Shown here: positions 15,500 through 64,000 of the stretch, piece by piece
How positions within the stretch are numbered: position 1 is the stretch's first letter
Layout of the letters: each line of letters starts with the position of its first letter
Assembly (NCBI GenBank): GCA_016840085.1
Contig: JAEOTA010000043.1
Coordinates: forward strand, 32,488 to 96,487
DNA length: 64,000 bases
From: Promethearchaeota archaeon
GTDB taxonomy: Archaea > Asgardarchaeota > Lokiarchaeia > Sigyniarchaeales > SOKP01
Reading direction: 5' to 3'
Program-made: the position numbers and the translations under genes
Notes under the pieces: generated by a model
Told to the model about the DNA's origin: nothing
The model's database searches: none
Seen by the model: only the letters and a program-made list of their open reading frames with translations

Positions 15500-16834
15500 A
15501 TGACGCACTTAAATCCCAATTCTGAATTTAGAACAGAGTATATTTATTTGAATACGAAACAAGTTCGAGTTCTCATAAACAGATTAAAGTGTAAAAAGGA
15601 GATGACGCAAAAAGCAATTAGCGAGAAGATTGGGTCAAGTATTGGGAGTGTGTTAGCAAGGGGATCAGCACTCAAATACGAAAGTTATCAAAAATTAAGT
15701 GAATTGGCTAGAAAGGTAAATTTAACGGTTGACATAACGCAAAGGAAATATGTTTATAATCATTCTATCGCATCACTGCAAAAATTAGCGAAAGAGATTG
15801 GGCTAAAGAAAACGGGAGTAGCGGGGAAATTCTTGTCAAAAAAGTATAGAGGGATGAATACATCACATAAATGGCAATGTGGGAGATGCGGAAAAATCTG
15901 GAATACATCCCCTAATAGCATCATGTATCAAGAAAGTTGGTGTACAAGGTGTTCAGGGCGGGAAACATGGACATATGAACAGATGGTAGAATTAGCAAGA
16001 GTGGGTGGTATAGAAAAGACAGGAGTAGCGGGTAAATTTTTAATGAGTAAAAGGGAATATGAACAGCAAACATATCCAGATAGAAGTAAATATCAATGGG
16101 AGTGCGGGAAGTGCGGACATAGGTGGGAATCAAGTGCAAATAACATAAAGCGGGGGTCATGGTGTAGAGAATGTCAATATACTCATCTTTCACGCACATT
16201 AAGGACGCCATATCATGAAATAGTAAAATTGGCAGAAAAAGTCGGGATTATGAAAACAGGGTATGCGGGTGTATTCTTTGCGAGTAAAGAAGAATATCAA
16301 AAAGTTCAAACTCCCAGCCATCATAAATTTATGTGGCAATGCGGAAAATGTCATGAGGTTTTTGAGATGGATATAACCCACGTTAGTCGACCGCAGTGGT
16401 GTCCAAGTTGTACTGAAGGAGAAAGCGAAGAAGTGTGTCGAGGGTTCTTTGAACATATTTTTAAGGCAAAATTTCAAAAAGGGCATCCAGAATGGCTTGT
16501 TAACCCTTTTAGTGGAGGAAAGATGCACCTTGATGGCTATAACAAAAGATTAAAATTAGCATTCGAGTTTAACGGTCCGCAACATTATAAAATGTATCCA
16601 AAATATCATAAGAAGTATCAAGATTTTGTGAAACAACAGGAGCGGGATCTGTTCAAAGCGACACTATGTAAGGAAAAGGACATTAATTTAATTGTAGTTC
16701 CCTATTGGTTTGATTATGATGAATTTCAGGAACATATTATAGAAGAATATGCGAAATTAACTGGGAATGTACTAAAAAAAATTCCTAAGTATGATTGGAG
16801 TAAATTTAAGAGACAAAATTCTAGTTTAAAATAA
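15500..16834 (+). CDS. Zinc-ribbon repeat protein with Vsr/PD-(D/E)XK-like nuclease domain
   Basis: 444 aa. Residues 20-75 look like an XRE-type helix-turn-helix (KCKKEMTQKAISEKIGSS). Three repeats follow, each with a helix, a KTGxAGxFL element and a treble-clef ribbon (WQCGRCGKIW...WCTRC; WECGKCGHRW...WCREC; WQCGKCHEVF...WCPSC). The C-terminus has MHLDGYNKRLKLAFEFNGPQ, then QERD and IVVPYWFD, the D...ExN/Q layout of very-short-patch and phage-type endonucleases. Likely a DNA-binding nuclease of mobile origin, free-standing; the somewhat higher G content of the zinc-finger part fits transfer. Target unknown. Confidence 0.75.
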   Translation: MTHLNPNSEFRTEYIYLNTKQVRVLINRLKCKKEMTQKAISEKIGSSIGSVLARGSALKYESYQKLSELARKVNLTVDITQRKYVYNHSIASLQKLAKEIGLKKTGVAGKFLSKKYRGMNTSHKWQCGRCGKIWNTSPNSIMYQESWCTRCSGRETWTYEQMVELARVGGIEKTGVAGKFLMSKREYEQQTYPDRSKYQWECGKCGHRWESSANNIKRGSWCRECQYTHLSRTLRTPYHEIVKLAEKVGIMKTGYAGVFFASKEEYQKVQTPSHHKFMWQCGKCHEVFEMDITHVSRPQWCPSCTEGESEEVCRGFFEHIFKAKFQKGHPEWLVNPFSGGKMHLDGYNKRLKLAFEFNGPQHYKMYPKYHKKYQDFVKQQERDLFKATLCKEKDINLIVVPYWFDYDEFQEHIIEEYAKLTGNVLKKIPKYDWSKFKRQNSSLK

Positions 16835-55670: not shown

Positions 55671-57299
55671 CTATCTGTTTTTAGATTTTTCATATTTCTT
55701 ATAAGTTATTAATACAACTAACGGTAAACAGAATAATAATAGAACCATATTATATCCTGAAATACTTGGTTGCTGATCTTGTGGCTCATCGGAAGGTTCA
55801 TCAGGGGGCTCATCGGAAGGTTCATCAGGTGGTTCGTCTGGAGATTCATCTTGTTGAGGGTCATTTGGGTCCAAAGGATCATATCCATTGTCCACTTCAA
55901 ATCCATCATTATATCCATCTCCATCGGTGTCTGGATTATTTGGATCAGTAAAATATACATTTATCTCTCGCCAATCGCTCAATCCATCGCTATCAGTGTC
56001 TGGATCGACTCTAAATTTAACTAGACAAAATGTCCCAAATTCTCCAAAAGCATACCATCCTGTTGTATAAATACTATTCTCTGAATCTATATCTAAACCA
56101 ACCCACTTTTTCTCAGCAATCCAGTGTGTTAAACATCCATATTCAACTATTTTTCCTAATGAATTGTATTTTAATAAATTAAAACAATAATATGTTCCAA
56201 AGAAAGTACCAGCTCCAATAATATATATGTTATCGAGGGAATCAATTAGTATTTTTAGAAATCGGGTAACAACCGAATCATCAAATGTTATATTCCATTG
56301 CTCTTGACCATTACTATTATATTTAACCATAAATGCATAATCATTATGTGTAATAAGACTATCACTATAACCAATAACATAGATATTGTTGTTTGAATCT
56401 ACAGCAACACCTTTTCCCTCATCAATATCATTTCCACCCCAAGTATTGGCCCATAATAATGTTCCTGAAGTATCATATTTTAATAAGCACATTTGTCGAT
56501 AGTATGAACTGATATAGATCCATCCTGTAATATAAATATTATCGTAATCATCGATTTCAATCGTATAACCATTATCAATAATAGTTCCTCCCCATGTTTT
56601 ATACCATTTAAAATTGCCATTCCTATCATACTTTATTAAAATAATATCTACACTTGGAGTATAACTATCAGATTCTCCAACTATATATACATCCCCTAAT
56701 GAATCACAGCTTACATCATTACCAATATCCCTGATATCAAAACCTGTTAGACCCCAAGTTCTAAGCCACAAAAAATTACCCCCTTCATCATATTTTATAA
56801 GAAAGATATTATGATTCACATTAGGGGTACCAGCTTGATCTGTATAGTATCCAGTGATAAAGATATCATTGTATTTATTTATACAGATGCCTCCAGCTCT
56901 AAGTTCGCTCAATCCTCCATCCCAAGTACGATTCCACAGAAGCCCTCCTTCTTTATTATATTTCTCAAGATATAATTTTTCATTATGAGGGTAATCTTTT
57001 AAACCAAGATTATATATATTATCATTTTTATCAACTACTGCATCTACTCCATAGTCATTAAGCCCATTATCCATAGTAATTGCTGTACGATTCCATTCAT
57101 AAACTAAGGAAATGTTACCAATAAAAATTGGAACACGTATTTCTGATAGTTTAGGATTATTTTGATATGAGTTTTCATTAAATTTGTCCTCAATATTACC
57201 ATTTCTAAATTGAAATAATGAAAAATAAGGTATTAGGATACACACTAAATAAAATACTATTAGAATAGAACTAATGATACTTTTTTGCCTGTTTATCAT
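55671..57299 (-). CDS. Surface beta-propeller protein (SBBP-type) with C-terminal membrane tail
   Basis: 542 aa. A signal segment at 10-30 (IISSILIVFYLVCILIPYF) is followed by about seven repeats of the type NNIYVIGYSDS...LLKYDSxGxxxW...TWGG (residues about 70-430), a propeller of the SBBP kind. Next come two calcium-binding TSP3-like motifs (DPDTDSDGLSDW, DPNNPDTDGDGYNDGF), a Pro/Asp/Glu/Ser linker of DEPPDEPS units, then ISGYN, a hydrophobic span and YKKYEKSKNR. Likely displayed on the cell surface. Flanked by copies A and B of the repeat. Confidence 0.85.
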   Translation of the reverse strand: MINRQKSIISSILIVFYLVCILIPYFSLFQFRNGNIEDKFNENSYQNNPKLSEIRVPIFIGNISLVYEWNRTAITMDNGLNDYGVDAVVDKNDNIYNLGLKDYPHNEKLYLEKYNKEGGLLWNRTWDGGLSELRAGGICINKYNDIFITGYYTDQAGTPNVNHNIFLIKYDEGGNFLWLRTWGLTGFDIRDIGNDVSCDSLGDVYIVGESDSYTPSVDIILIKYDRNGNFKWYKTWGGTIIDNGYTIEIDDYDNIYITGWIYISSYYRQMCLLKYDTSGTLLWANTWGGNDIDEGKGVAVDSNNNIYVIGYSDSLITHNDYAFMVKYNSNGQEQWNITFDDSVVTRFLKILIDSLDNIYIIGAGTFFGTYYCFNLLKYNSLGKIVEYGCLTHWIAEKKWVGLDIDSENSIYTTGWYAFGEFGTFCLVKFRVDPDTDSDGLSDWREINVYFTDPNNPDTDGDGYNDGFEVDNGYDPLDPNDPQQDESPDEPPDEPSDEPPDEPSDEPQDQQPSISGYNMVLLLFCLPLVVLITYKKYEKSKNR

Positions 57300-57826: not shown

Positions 57827-59881
57827 TTAGTTTAAATAGAAAAATATATTTTTCTGTCGTCCGTATACTAGAAAGATGATACCAAATAGTAAAAAAACTC
57901 CTCCTGATGGTAGATGCCTTGATAAAAAAGGTAAGTACCAATAAGCTCCTAATCCCTGCGAGACTATTAATCCATAAATTAGTGATATAATTCCTAATAC
58001 AATATTACAATATCCAATGCTAACCCAACTCTTTGCACGTTTGGTATTTTTCACTTTTATAATATTTTGTCTTTTTATTTCATTTTCAATAAACTTCATT
58101 TTCTCAGAATCAGGAATAATTCTTTCAGTAAATATGGTGTTTATCCAGTCTCGATATGAAATCCATTCAGTGTCTATCTCAGATTTTATGTATCCATCTT
58201 TATTATATCTGAAATAGTTCTTTAGCTTAGAACCAAATTTCATTCGTAATATAATTAGTGCGATAATACCTATCAATAGAGTAATTGAATATGGCGTTAA
58301 TGTTCTAATCCATGGTAAAGCTACGGAAGAGACGTGTTTAAGACCTGGAATAAATACAAAAAGAGCTATAGTAACTATTATAAATGCAACGCTTAGAAAG
58401 AATAATAATATTTTGCTAATAAACCATATTTGAAACCTTTTTCTGCACTTATAACATGTAGGTATTACACCGTGACTTTTATATTCAAATATACCCCCTT
58501 CTTTTGTCCCACATTTAATACATTTTAAATGACTAAATGGACTTCGCCTTGCCATTTCCGTGTATTTCTTCAATTTTAATTCTCTCTTAATTTCTCTTAC
58601 TGAAACATCTCTTTTCCTTAGTATTAAATACCCTCCTATAACAAACATTATTATAACAATTGGGATTAAGATTGCTAGGAATAAGAGCAAGTTAAAGCCT
58701 CTAGATGGCATTTTCCACAATGCTCTATAAAAATATAATAGGTGCCCCTCCCAATTTCCTGCTACGATATAGGAACCATCTGAAGATATGTCAACACTAC
58801 ATACGGGATTACCAGTATCATACTTCTTTAATGGCTTTGAATTATTTTTACTAAATAAATATACATTATAATCTTTACTTCCCGCTACAATATAATTTCC
58901 ATCAGAGGATATAGCAACATTTAACACCCAGTCATTAGTGGTATATTTCCAAATTGGAGTAGTTCCATTATTATTAAATAAATAAATATTATTATCATCC
59001 CTACTCCCTGCTACAATATAATTTCCATCTGAGGATATACCCACTTCACATACATAACTATTAGTTTCATATACCCAAATTGGTATAGAATTATTCTTGG
59101 TGAACAAATAGATATTAATTCCCCCCACCACAATGTAATTCCCATCTGAAGATATTGCAACACAATTAATAGTTTTGTTGCTAAAATTCCAAATTGGTGT
59201 AGAACTATTCTTATTAAATAAATACAAACTTTCCCAACCTCCCATTCTAAAACTTCCTCCCGCTATTATATATTTTCCATCAGAAGAAATTGCTACACTA
59301 TATAAATCTGCATTTGCAGTATAACTCCAAATTGGTGTAGAACTATTCCTATTGAATAAATATATTCTATAATCTCTCCCTCCAGCCACTATATAATTCC
59401 CATCTGATGAAATTGCTACACTCATTACAACTTCGTTAGTTGTAAAAGTCCATAAAGGTGAAGGATTTGATCGATCGAAAAAATAAATTTTATTATCATT
59501 ACTCCCAATTACAAAGTATTTTCCGTCTGATGAAATTGCTAGATCCATAGTTATACCATTCAATTTGTAACTCCAAATTGGTATAGAACTTGATCGATTA
59601 AACAAATAAATCTCATTAATATTATCACCTCCTACTACAATGTAATTTCCGTCGGAAGATATTGCTAAAGTGATTTGAGGGGAATCATTTGTTTTGAAAT
59701 CCCATATTGGTGAATTTGAGATCTTTAATTTATCCTTAGTGGAGTTATCAATTTGATTATAGTTCAAATCTAAGAATGAAGAATTAAATTTGCTTAAATT
59801 TTGGGTAGAGAAACTCATTATGATTAAAATTGATATAACAATTATAAAGATACTTTTATAAATTTCTTTATATTGACTCAT
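57827..59881 (-). CDS. WD40/PQQ-like propeller protein with membrane and zinc-ribbon C-terminus
   Basis: 684 aa. An N-terminal signal/anchor (IFIIVISILIIMSF) precedes eight repeats of about 41 residues built on AISSDGNYIVVGG...IYLFN...TPIWxY (about 60-395). Then come MPSRGFNLLLFLAILI (first span), a cytosolic zinc ribbon CIKCGTKEGG...TCYKCRKRF, two spans, a polar stretch and two last spans. So the propeller faces out and a ribbon faces in, a sensor-like layout. The repeats are alike at DNA level, indicating recent expansion. Function unknown. Confidence 0.83.
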   Translation of the reverse strand: MSQYKEIYKSIFIIVISILIIMSFSTQNLSKFNSSFLDLNYNQIDNSTKDKLKISNSPIWDFKTNDSPQITLAISSDGNYIVVGGDNINEIYLFNRSSSIPIWSYKLNGITMDLAISSDGKYFVIGSNDNKIYFFDRSNPSPLWTFTTNEVVMSVAISSDGNYIVAGGRDYRIYLFNRNSSTPIWSYTANADLYSVAISSDGKYIIAGGSFRMGGWESLYLFNKNSSTPIWNFSNKTINCVAISSDGNYIVVGGINIYLFTKNNSIPIWVYETNSYVCEVGISSDGNYIVAGSRDDNNIYLFNNNGTTPIWKYTTNDWVLNVAISSDGNYIVAGSKDYNVYLFSKNNSKPLKKYDTGNPVCSVDISSDGSYIVAGNWEGHLLYFYRALWKMPSRGFNLLLFLAILIPIVIIMFVIGGYLILRKRDVSVREIKRELKLKKYTEMARRSPFSHLKCIKCGTKEGGIFEYKSHGVIPTCYKCRKRFQIWFISKILLFFLSVAFIIVTIALFVFIPGLKHVSSVALPWIRTLTPYSITLLIGIIALIILRMKFGSKLKNYFRYNKDGYIKSEIDTEWISYRDWINTIFTERIIPDSEKMKFIENEIKRQNIIKVKNTKRAKSWVSIGYCNIVLGIISLIYGLIVSQGLGAYWYLPFLSRHLPSGGVFLLFGIIFLVYGRQKNIFFYLN

Positions 59882-60056: not shown

Positions 60057-60157
60057 AGTATATAATCATTCAAAATTGCCTTAATTTGGTGCTTTTAAAA
60101 TAAAGTTTAAAAAAATTAAAAATGGTGTGAAAAATAGAACCTGAATTTTACCATTCT

Positions 60158-62275
60158 ATGATTAAAATAACACAAGTTCCAAAAATCAGAAGTAAAATTG
60201 AAGATGAAGCTTCATGGTTGTGCGATCCTTTTGCCAATAGTCGTGTATATGGTACCAAATTTACCTTAAAGGATCGATATTTCTCATGGAAGTTTTTCTT
60301 AAAAGAAGAATCAAAGGAAGATGCATTTAAAAATGGCTATCAATTTTTAGATTATCTAAGAGAGATTTATCCAGGATTATCAGGAGAGGTAAAAGTAAAA
60401 CCAATAGATTTCAAACAAATAAATAAACAGAAGCTATTATTAGAGCTAACTCTTCCTAAACCCTTTTTTAATAAACAGATCAATTTATTTAAAAAAATCA
60501 TCAATCTTTTTACTTTTAATAAAAACCACGTTATCAAAATTTATATTTTATGGCAAAAAGATGACTCTCTAATAGGAGAAATTAAAGGAACAGAATTAGA
60601 AACAGAATATAAGTTAGATGAAAATTTCAAAATAAAAATTTATCTCTCTCTAGTACCAAAATTCGATAATAATATACATATTGAAGATCAGAAGGCAGAA
60701 TTAAAAGGGCACTTAGAATATTTAACTACAGAAATAGCAAACATAGAGGGTGAAACGGCAACACTTACCCAAGTTTCGCCTGACACATGGAAACAAATAT
60801 TGAACGGAAGAGTATTCTGGAAAAATCTGTTAGGTGTGGATACAGGGCGATTCTATCGAGGTATTATAGATCAAATTCCTGAAGATAAAATTCCCGGATT
60901 TGTGAGTCCAAAAGTAATTGATTTCACTATTCCCGAATATTTTCTTCTTGATAAAGCAATAACCGTAAGAAATGAGAATATAAGCTTTTTACAAAAATCT
61001 AATCAAAAGGAAATTTCTCTAGGATATTACATTAGCAGAGGTGTTAAAACACATAAAAAGGTTAACCTTTCAATTAATGACCTTGTTCATCATACATTTA
61101 TTAGTGGTTTAACTGGTTCTGGAAAAACTACATTTTTAAACCAAATACAACAAGAAATATCTATAAAATATCCTAATTGTGGCATTTTGATTATAGGTAT
61201 GAGAAAAAAAGATGAAGATATTCCCTATAATTTAGATATAACCTTAAGGTATGGGGATCAAGACTTCAGAGTTCCCTACTATTTTAAGGGGGAAAATATC
61301 GAGGTAACTTTAGAACAATTAGCAGCTTTACTAGCCTCGTCGCTTGGGTTAAAACAACCAGTTGATATTATTATGTACAATGCAATGATTAAATATTTTG
61401 AAAAAAATAAAGATCTTCCAGATACTTTAGAGGATTTATTTGGAAAACTTTTGAACTGGTTTAAAAATTATCCGTATCATAGAAAATATCAAACCAATAT
61501 TACAAATGCGATAAAGAATCGTGCATTAAGATGGAGTTCATCTCCAATTTTAAAAAATATTACACGTTTGCCTTCTATTAAGCCGTTTTGGTTTATGGAA
61601 TGGATAAATGGAAAAAATATATACATTGATTTGTCTAAATCCATATGTAATGATTTTATAAAAAAACTGTTGATCAATTTGATCTTTCAAATGATTCGTA
61701 TCTTTTTTCCTCAAATTAGGAAGAATAAATTGAAAAATCTTATAATTTTGGATGAAATCGGTGTAATCTTAAAAAAACCAGCCACTACTGTTTCTAATGA
61801 TGATGAATTTGTGTCTCAATATTTTTTTGAAGAGGTTTTTTCTGATTTTCTTGAAGCATTCAGAAGTAGAGGTATCGGTCTCATACTGACAGCTCAAAAA
61901 CCATCACAATTATTTGAATCTGTCTATTCTCTTCCTAGTATTCTCATTTTGTTTAGAACTGCACACTCTTGTAGTAACCTATTTACAAATGATAGAGAAG
62001 AACAAGATACCTTAGCAATTTTTGAAGCTAGAAGGGCTATAGTTATTGATGGTGTTAATGGACGAAAATTTGCAATATATACTAAAGATTTCAATTATAA
62101 AAATTTCTCAAATCATCCTGTCAATAGAATTCAGAATTTATGTCCTTCATGTAAAAATTATATAAAACCGTATGATAATTTTTGTAGTGTTTGTGGTAAC
62201 TCTTTAAACTTAGATTCCAAATCGACTATTGATAAATCGGACATAGAATCTACAAAACTTAAAGAAAATAATTAA
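60158..62275 (+). CDS. HerA/FtsK-like P-loop ATPase with C-terminal zinc ribbon
   Basis: 705 aa. An N-terminal region of about 300 residues has no recognised motif. Walker A is SGLTGSGKTTFLNQI (about 316-330), Walker B NLIILDEIGVIL (about 527-538), and SRGIGLILTAQKPSQL follows as the sensor/arginine region typical of HerA/VirB4/TraG-type motors. The tail is LCPSCKNYIKPYDNFCSVCG. Such ring ATPases pump DNA or protein. It lies 43 bases upstream of a long acidic protein gene, so a two-gene unit. DNA repair (HerA-NurA) is unlikely as no nurA is near. Confidence 0.82.
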   Translation: MIKITQVPKIRSKIEDEASWLCDPFANSRVYGTKFTLKDRYFSWKFFLKEESKEDAFKNGYQFLDYLREIYPGLSGEVKVKPIDFKQINKQKLLLELTLPKPFFNKQINLFKKIINLFTFNKNHVIKIYILWQKDDSLIGEIKGTELETEYKLDENFKIKIYLSLVPKFDNNIHIEDQKAELKGHLEYLTTEIANIEGETATLTQVSPDTWKQILNGRVFWKNLLGVDTGRFYRGIIDQIPEDKIPGFVSPKVIDFTIPEYFLLDKAITVRNENISFLQKSNQKEISLGYYISRGVKTHKKVNLSINDLVHHTFISGLTGSGKTTFLNQIQQEISIKYPNCGILIIGMRKKDEDIPYNLDITLRYGDQDFRVPYYFKGENIEVTLEQLAALLASSLGLKQPVDIIMYNAMIKYFEKNKDLPDTLEDLFGKLLNWFKNYPYHRKYQTNITNAIKNRALRWSSSPILKNITRLPSIKPFWFMEWINGKNIYIDLSKSICNDFIKKLLINLIFQMIRIFFPQIRKNKLKNLIILDEIGVILKKPATTVSNDDEFVSQYFFEEVFSDFLEAFRSRGIGLILTAQKPSQLFESVYSLPSILILFRTAHSCSNLFTNDREEQDTLAIFEARRAIVIDGVNGRKFAIYTKDFNYKNFSNHPVNRIQNLCPSCKNYIKPYDNFCSVCGNSLNLDSKSTIDKSDIESTKLKENN

Positions 62276-62318
62276 TTGAAAGCGAACATTTTAAGAAATT
62301 TTGGGGGATAGATAATCT

Positions 62319-64000
62319 ATGAGTGAATCTGGGGGCGAATACGATGGAGGAGAATCAGATAATCAGCCAGATCGTGATTTCAATAAGGAATATGATCCGA
62401 ATGAAGATTATGACTGGGGAGATGATTATGATCCAGATGAAGACTACGATTGGAAGGATGATTATGATCCAGATGAGGACTATGACTGGGGAGATGATTT
62501 TGATCCGAACGAAGATTATGATTGGGGAGATGATTATGATCCAAATGAAAATGATAAGAGTGAAGATGAATCTGATTCTGATGAGGAACAACCAGAATCC
62601 AAAATCGTTCCAGAAGGAAAAACTCCTGAAGATTTAGCTGGAGATGATATCCCTGAAAATCCAGAAGGTGAAGGACCAAAAGAAGTTCCTGATGAAAGCC
62701 CAGATGATTTTATTGAAGAATCTAAACCAAACGATGATCTCGATAATGAGTCTGACGAATCCTTCGAGGAATATAATCCAGACGATGATCCTGACAATGA
62801 ACCCGAAGATTATTTTAAAGAATATGATCCGAAAAGTGAACCAGAAAAACAACCTGAAGGGATAAACAATCCTAATAGCGATGGCACTATAACTGTTACA
62901 GTCCCGAATGAACCAGAACAAGAACTTGATCAAGAACCTGAGAATGAACCTGAACAAGATCTGGAAGAAAAACTAGAAGAAATCGAAGAATTTGAGTTGA
63001 TTACCACTGAGGGTGAATCAGAGAAACCAAGTGAATCACCTGAAGTTATGAAAATTAGAGCAGATCTCGAAGAAATGGGATTAGCAGATAACACTGAACC
63101 TTTTTATCGTCATGATGAATCTCCCGAACTTAATTCAGATCATGATTTAGAACAAGAAACAGAACAAAACCATGAATATAAATCAGAGTTAGAACCAGAA
63201 AAGGAATTTGATAAACTGTTAGAACAAGAAAAAAAAGAAGTATCTATAAATGATCAAGAATTAAAATTTGAGGACGAAATACATCAAGACGGCAAGATAA
63301 AAGAGGAAATCGAGAGTCAAGAAACTCAAGAAGAACTAGAAGAGTCTTTACAAGAATCCAATCTAAAAAAACCGCAAGAGTCAAAAGAAAAGATAAAAGC
63401 TACAGAAAAAGATAATTATGAAGTCCTTAAAGAGCAATATCATCAAGAAACAAGAAGGAGAGCAATTTATGCACAAAAAGAAACTAAAGGTTTTATTGAG
63501 TGGAAAGAAGGGAAAGGAGAAAAAGAGTATAAAGAATATGAAGAGAAACAAGAATTAGATAAAAAATCAAAAAAAGAAATTCAAGATACAGAAAAAGATA
63601 ATTATGAAGTCCTTAAAGAGCACTATCATCAAGAAACAGGAAAGAGAGCAATTTATGCACAAAAAGAGACTAAAGGTTTTATTGAGTGGAAAGAAAGGAA
63701 AGGAGAAAAAGAGTATAAAGAACATGAAGAAAAACAAGAATTAGATAAAGAATCAAAAAAAGAAATTCAAGCACTTAAAGAAGAATCGGTAGAATATTTA
63801 ATTAACAGCATTAAAGAAACTGCCAGTAATGAAGAAATCTCAGAAAAAACAAGAGAGGAATTAATTGAGTTATTAAAAAAATATGATAAAATTTATGAAC
63901 TGCATAAGAAATTACAGAATCGAGAAATTGTTAAACAAGAATTTGAGCAAGAAATAGAAAAAATAGAAAAAGAATTAGGCGAAAAATTAAGAGTAGGAAC
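62319..64000 (+). CDS. Long acidic repeat protein, runs off the window (at least 560 codons)
   Basis: Absent from the ORF track, probably because it has no stop in the window; I read it open from ATG 62319 to the last base. A GGGGGA ribosome site precedes the start. It begins MSESGGEYDGGESDN, then four 12-residue repeats of YDP(D/N)EDYDWGDD, a Pro/Glu/Asp-rich disordered part (PEN, EPEQEL), then a Glu/Lys coiled-coil part with two copies of a 62-residue unit, and further coiled coil. No enzyme domain is visible. It is probably co-transcribed with the ATPase and may be its partner or substrate. Confidence 0.8.
   Translation, partial: MSESGGEYDGGESDNQPDRDFNKEYDPNEDYDWGDDYDPDEDYDWKDDYDPDEDYDWGDDFDPNEDYDWGDDYDPNENDKSEDESDSDEEQPESKIVPEGKTPEDLAGDDIPENPEGEGPKEVPDESPDDFIEESKPNDDLDNESDESFEEYNPDDDPDNEPEDYFKEYDPKSEPEKQPEGINNPNSDGTITVTVPNEPEQELDQEPENEPEQDLEEKLEEIEEFELITTEGESEKPSESPEVMKIRADLEEMGLADNTEPFYRHDESPELNSDHDLEQETEQNHEYKSELEPEKEFDKLLEQEKKEVSINDQELKFEDEIHQDGKIKEEIESQETQEELEESLQESNLKKPQESKEKIKATEKDNYEVLKEQYHQETRRRAIYAQKETKGFIEWKEGKGEKEYKEYEEKQELDKKSKKEIQDTEKDNYEVLKEHYHQETGKRAIYAQKETKGFIEWKERKGEKEYKEHEEKQELDKESKKEIQALKEESVEYLINSIKETASNEEISEKTREELIELLKKYDKIYELHKKLQNREIVKQEFEQEIEKIEKELGEKLRVG
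62391..62534 (+). repeat. Four 36-base tandem repeats (YDPDEDYDWGDD)
   Basis: Each unit encodes Y/F-D-P-D/N-E-D-Y-D-W-G/K-D-D; four near-exact units are followed by a decayed fifth (YDPNENDKSEDE). The units differ by only a few bases, so the array is recent or homogenised. The array lies near the start of the acidic protein gene. Confidence 0.85.
63399..63770 (+). repeat. Two tandem 186-base repeats
   Basis: 63399-63584 and 63585-63770 encode 62-residue units starting with TEKDNYEVLKE and ending with KSKKEIQ or ESKKEIQ, including RAIYAQKETKGFIEWKE in both. They differ at only a handful of bases and keep frame. A recent in-frame duplication within the acidic protein gene. Confidence 0.85.

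Follow-up and report, generated by a model that had tools for sequence, protein, structure and literature searches.

A candidate homing-type mobile element of Lokiarchaeales that pairs a HerA/FtsK-class ATPase with a giant acidic protein

The window, a 64,000-nt stretch of archaeal DNA (G000:C35:32488-96487) whose final base, 64000, is the end of the host contig, carries at its right end a P-loop ATPase gene followed by the beginning of a gene for a giant acidic protein. Judged from sequence comparisons, this pair is most probably (we estimate the probability at about 0.8) a two-gene, site-specific, homing-type mobile element of Lokiarchaeales with swappable nuclease tips. Those features of homing that can be tested on sequences, i.e., nucleases of homing superfamilies, empty as well as occupied alleles and a nuclease type specific to the site, were all found in the family. 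The support comes from the conserved pairing, the modular tips, insertions with empty alleles, association of tip with site, core replacement and, at one site, a lower dS of the tips; it was drawn from metagenome assemblies in which numerous copies are found at the ends of contigs and the window copy is incomplete.

The ATPase gene and its acidic partner

The first gene (60158..62275, plus strand) codes for a 705-aa protein with homologues in 26 of 58 relatives. Its Walker A motif, GLTGSGKT (61106..61129, plus strand), and Walker B motif, NLIILDE (61736..61756, plus strand), are intact, and residues G317, G322, K323, D532 and E533 are invariant in 16 homologues. Four cysteines near the C-terminus (CPSC...CSVC; 62141..62197, plus strand) form a predicted zinc ribbon, with Pfam zinc-ribbon matches below cut-off; the ribbon is also present in the ATPase homologues of L052-L056 and absent from other homologues. 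All Pfam and NCBIfam matches of the window ATPase are sub-threshold. The curated HerA model NF042943 gives 26 bits against a cut-off of 800, DUF87 gives 16 against 23, and the TrwB domain gives 17.8 against 20.5 (E 0.0017). The best profile matches were obtained in PADLOC, to mad8 (3.5e-14) and HerA (6e-8), i.e., to MADS and defence HerA proteins, and a search with the ATPase family profile matched HerA in the PDB at 3.2e-6. The AlphaFold model (pLDDT 49.6) was too poor for fold comparison. The matches are weak but consistent, and on their basis the protein is assigned to the HerA/FtsK/VirB4 class, within which no curated family fits. The sequence-only reading, which had seen a HerA/FtsK-like motor in something other than a standard HerA, FtsK or coupling-protein setup, was right on both counts.

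The second gene starts with an ATG at position 62319, 43 bp past the ATPase stop codon, and stays open for 560 codons up to the contig end (62319..64000, plus strand); homologues of its core are present in 23 of 79 genomes of the order. The frame opens with acidic DYDW/DYDP repeats of a 36-nt period (62352..62587, plus strand; direct repeat family D1), in which four DYDW units stand in register, 12 codons apart. Asp and Glu make up 41% of residues 1-200, and a Glu/Lys-rich part follows. Further downstream, two tandem 186-nt units, 92% identical (63376..63747, plus strand; direct repeat family D2), carry the conserved motif YHQET.RRAIYAQKETKGFIEWK, which is also found in contigs C4 and C81 and in L052-L057. 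The earlier description of a zinc-ribbon ATPase followed after 43 bp by a frame of at least 560 codons, with Tyr-Asp-Trp repeats giving way to Glu/Lys and growth driven by repeats, therefore stands. Homologues built in the same way are found next to homologous ATPases in many Lokiarchaeota, so the acidic ORF is not a chance frame.

By blastn, the segment 63069..64000 (plus strand) is ca. 95% identical to the starts of C4 and C81, two contigs of the same genome whose first 127 bp are exactly alike. Their reading frames stay open for 1395 and 1240 aa and lead into two different nuclease tips. Contigs C13, C86 and C85 of this genome hold further copies of the core. When both are placed on C81, C13 begins ca. 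49 bp past the end of C35, and it is possible that C35 continues into C13. The tip of the window copy and its right flank lie beyond the contig end, and we infer from the relatives that this copy, too, would end in a nuclease. Because of the same truncation, the C-terminus was out of reach of the sequence-only reading.

The numerous contig ends in genome G017 had also raised the idea of a shufflon or of silent cassettes, which was not supported: shared 55-mers tie each ATPase contig to its own tip contig. Two window-type ATPase contigs are linked in this way (C70 to C4 and C51 to C9); the breaks lie in tandem repeats, and the links themselves cross repeats.

The pairing was assessed on 23 loci picked by the ATPase alone (20 by search, plus the window, C60 and C69), of which 2 were cut by contig ends. 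An acidic giant and/or a nuclease partner was present beside the ATPase in 16 of the 21 informative loci, so the proposed pairing is conserved. The remaining loci include L019, L066 and L070, which are Tad-like with small acidic proteins, the partnerless L065, and L068, with a LAGLIDADG protein ca. 4 kb from the ATPase. A second gene order is seen in C60, L063 and L071, with the nuclease/acidic protein encoded upstream of the ATPase; in both orders, the acidic part sits between the nuclease and the ATPase gene. Profile matches to the ATPase were found in 38 of 79 genomes of the order. At E <= 1e-20 they were confined to this order in a 196-genome sample of the phylum, a scan of named records returned Lokiarchaeota MAGs only, and the viral contigs searched contained no relative. 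The pair is found repeatedly in Lokiarchaeales, and genomes hold many copies of it.

Comparison of copies at different loci delimits the element on the left. DNA similarity starts 60-95 bp before the equivalent of position 60158 and is abruptly lost further upstream: L072/L073 and L074 are 92% identical inside this edge and share no similarity outside it, and the window can be aligned with L075 from position 60097. The left edge is thus placed approximately, within 60063-60097, at the start of the ATPase gene leader (60063..60157, plus strand). Directly upstream, on the minus strand, are genes for two large beta-propeller proteins (55671-57299 and 57827-59881), one with TSP3 repeats and the other a WD40 protein with apparent membrane segments. 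The window-type copies of L053 and L054 adjoin a 289-aa gene upstream of the ATPase (Cas6 by Pfam in L054); their upstream DNA is 98% identical between two species, yet their tips differ.

These boundaries bear on the idea of a conjugative or DNA-transfer element, in which a VirD4-like coupling ATPase would work with a relaxase-like giant. The weak TrwB match (0.0017) speaks for it, as do two genes that precede the ATPase in some copies: one for a HerA-like protein of 1276-1337 aa with apparent membrane segments (L057 11535-15365, L176 9327-13172, L069 11563-15576) and a low-acidity ORF of 230-250 aa. However, in the window-type element neither gene is found in the interval from the mapped left edge to the ATPase, no relaxase family was matched, and the 1276-aa protein, possibly an inactive ATPase, lacks a clear P-loop and a PDB match. 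We consider a transfer element improbable. The absence of NurA and conjugation genes beside the motor, claimed earlier, was borne out: Pfam scans of the neighbours examined, which are a part of all neighbours, revealed no nurA, and no relaxase or T4SS genes lie within the mapped edges of the window-type element. Likewise, ATPases of the soluble branch were recurrently found beside an acidic giant and, among the neighbours examined, not beside nurA or mobilisation genes; the expectation of a neighbourhood free of mobilisation genes is qualified only by the HerA-like protein and the 230-250-aa ORF in front of some copies.

A membrane-anchored branch of the ATPase family (L019, i.e., G000:C69, L066 and L070) has TadA-like (T2SSE) and TadC-like genes nearby, together with genes for small acidic proteins, and these loci probably encode a pilus or secretion system.

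Giant proteins and their C-terminal tips

The 49 giants mapped in relatives share one layout: an acidic, low-complexity, repeat-rich front, a helical core and a variable C-terminal tip. They are ca. 950-2400 aa long, with a maximum of 2437 aa. The tips are exchangeable, and most resemble homing nucleases of the LAGLIDADG, HNH or Vsr/PD-(D/E)XK type. LAGLIDADG_3 was matched by 12 of 47 tips (best 4.9e-13), and matches to PHROGs of HNH/homing endonucleases reached 2.5e-65. Other tips bear GIY-YIG, Vsr-like or PD-(D/E)XK signatures, with motifs judged by inspection, often together with zinc-ribbon, HTH or TFIIB repeats, and L060 has an intein-like domain with LAGLIDADG. Some tips (L059, L069, L161, L166, L168) matched no nuclease family in profile searches. 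Regular expressions for nuclease motifs, which miss known LAGLIDADG tips, hit 26 of 56 giants or partners and 2 of 243 neighbours. The system of translocation or surface assembly suggested by the sequence-only reading is not supported by these data: the C-termini of homologues are usually homing-type nucleases, the copies occupy otherwise empty intergenic sites with the tip matched to the site, and Tad-like pilus loci contain only the membrane-anchored branch (e.g., C69/L019, L070).

A free-standing gene at 15500-16834 (plus strand) of the window codes for a 444-aa zinc-ribbon and Vsr/PD-(D/E)XK-like nuclease homologous to giant tips (7e-33). Its end lies 13 bp from a P-loop ATPase gene in convergent orientation, and it comes with neither a core nor an ATPase of its own. 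It is possible that such nucleases are a source of tips.

Insertion sites and their empty alleles

The junction between acd and etfB is empty in nine congeners, with gaps of 89-221 bp, including the single-contig genomes G004 and G008. It is occupied in G009, G012 and G015, in all three by the same LAGLIDADG tip ca. 127-129 bp from etfB; in G012, the ATPase and giant genes lie directly upstream of etfB, and the left flank is missing. A site beside a radical-SAM gene is empty in seven genomes, carries the same tip type in G017 and G076, and holds a remnant in G000. A GTPase site is empty in three genomes and occupied in G000 and G015 by the same HNH tip (69%), and a site at a PoK-like kinase gene is empty in eight and occupied in G000. 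The right edge of the element maps close to the stop codon of the tip. Together with the left edge 60-95 bp before the ATPase gene, it follows that the window-type element consists of two genes. No terminal repeats were found.

Homologous tips were seen in 4 of 4 pairs with a homologous first downstream gene and in 4 of 942 other pairs (Fisher p = 2e-9; tips were taken as homologous at 45% identity, and the pairs come from related genomes and are not fully independent). Three pairs of tips with 47-53% identity (L145, L170, L177) occupy different sites. Searches that started from the flanks retrieved four more occupants (G003 at SMC, G015 at etfB, the G000 radical-SAM remnant and G015 at the GTPase), each with the tip type expected for its site. 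At the SMC site, the tips of G000 and G017 are 69% identical on cores that cannot be aligned, which indicates that tip and site stay together while the chassis is replaced.

At acd|etfB, dS of the tips is 0.21, 0.28 and 0.28, compared to 0.43, 0.61 and 0.47 for etfB, and tip dN/dS of ca. 0.14-0.22 corresponds to purifying selection. Since tip dS is about half that of etfB, the tips have probably spread horizontally. At the SMC site, the tip is as diverged as SMC itself (dS 1.35 and 1.34, respectively), so this site may be old and vertically inherited. In L155, L157 and L151, the ATPase has been lost and the tip is still open. It thus follows that the ATPase is not needed for persistence; it may be needed for movement.

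In G009 and G015, where the site is occupied, acd contains a 30-bp insert (L155 2040-2071; L157, G015:C46:48699-48730) that includes a hairpin and a TAG in frame; beyond it the normal frame resumes. The nine empty alleles lack this insert. The insert recalls the bypass insert of T4 gene 60, which is thought to be protective against a homing nuclease (PMC5009743). Upstream of the truncated G009 giant, L155 ca. 2340-2790 resembles, by eye, a Cdc48/VAT N-domain.

The sites also help to weigh two further explanations. Were the giants polymorphic effectors, the motor would export them, their nuclease tips would attack neighbouring cells and tips would be exchanged by recombination. A constant front with a variable nuclease C-terminus, the multiple copies and the membrane-anchored ATPase branch in Tad-like loci would suit such toxins, which share the former trait (PMC3482391). 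But the genes downstream, which lie on either strand, differ and are mostly ordinary ones (SMC, PoK-like kinase, radical-SAM, GTPase, etfB), no immunity-like gene recurs among the downstream neighbours examined, the giants match no secretion family, and the tips are of homing type and track the genomic site. An effector role is therefore very improbable. Intracellular defence, in which a HerA-type motor and a nuclease would restrict foreign DNA, draws on the best ATPase profile matches, which are to MADS proteins and HerA of defence systems, and on the existence of known defence pairs of HerA with a nuclease. The giants, however, have no match in PADLOC, and fixed sites matched to nuclease type, with many empty alleles, would be unexpected for a defence module, so we regard this explanation as unlikely.

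Proposed mechanism and relation to known systems

In the homing-type element that we propose, gene 1 would supply a soluble HerA/FtsK-class ATPase, and gene 2 a giant composed of the acidic front, the conserved helical core and an exchangeable nuclease tip, whose coding region closes the element on the right and borders the chromosomal flank. The tip would cleave the empty allele of its own site, and recombination would then copy the element into the cut. As the acidic part lies between nuclease and ATPase gene in both gene orders, the ATPase would probably dock through the acidic region, and it could act as a ring motor moving or processing DNA at the cut. We advance its participation in homing tentatively. 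With similar reserve, we envisage an ATP-driven homing machine in which one motor and an acidic/core chassis carry interchangeable nucleases and the motor takes part in cutting or copying. It is conceivable, at the same level, that by exchanging LAGLIDADG, HNH, GIY-YIG, Vsr/PD-(D/E)XK and intein-like nucleases, one family of elements has been able to colonise many sites in Asgard genomes.

Free-standing homing endonucleases, such as that of phage T4 gene 39/60 (PMC5009743), have in common with the element the nuclease families, intergenic sites beside conserved genes, empty and occupied alleles, and a nuclease type matched to the site. Here, in contrast, a giant acidic/core protein bears the nuclease as its tip and is encoded beside a dedicated ATPase, and several nuclease superfamilies occur on one chassis. 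HerA of HerA-NurA repair and of Sir2-HerA and related defence pairs shares the P-loop motor class, a DUF87-like core and a partner nuclease, whereas the Lokiarchaeales ATPase falls below every curated HerA cut-off, has its own N-terminal region and has no NurA, Sir2 or DUF4297 beside it. Giant proteins and an ATPase gene are likewise features of aloposons, Asgard mobile elements found in Heimdallarchaea, but these encode tandem giants of 3000-6000 aa and a MinD/ParA-like ATPase and occupy tRNA sites (PMC8813620). The Lokiarchaeales element has a single giant of at most 2437 aa and a HerA-class ATPase; the window contains no tRNA, and the sites examined are flanked by protein genes. Among openly licensed papers, we found no published ATPase-coupled homing element. 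On sequence grounds, the element behaves like a free-standing homing endonuclease, which is a known kind; what appears to be new is that a HerA-class ATPase and a giant acidic chassis are combined with it.

The elements also explain some of the assembly breaks in these genomes: these breaks fall in their repeats or shared cores. Homing nucleases are minimal selfish genes that borrow host repair. With a ring ATPase of its own and a chassis on which entire nuclease superfamilies are exchanged, the present element would broaden the notion of a homing element. One class of the giant acidic proteins of Lokiarchaeota would be explained by the family, which would also offer natural nucleases with a constant chassis and variable specificity.
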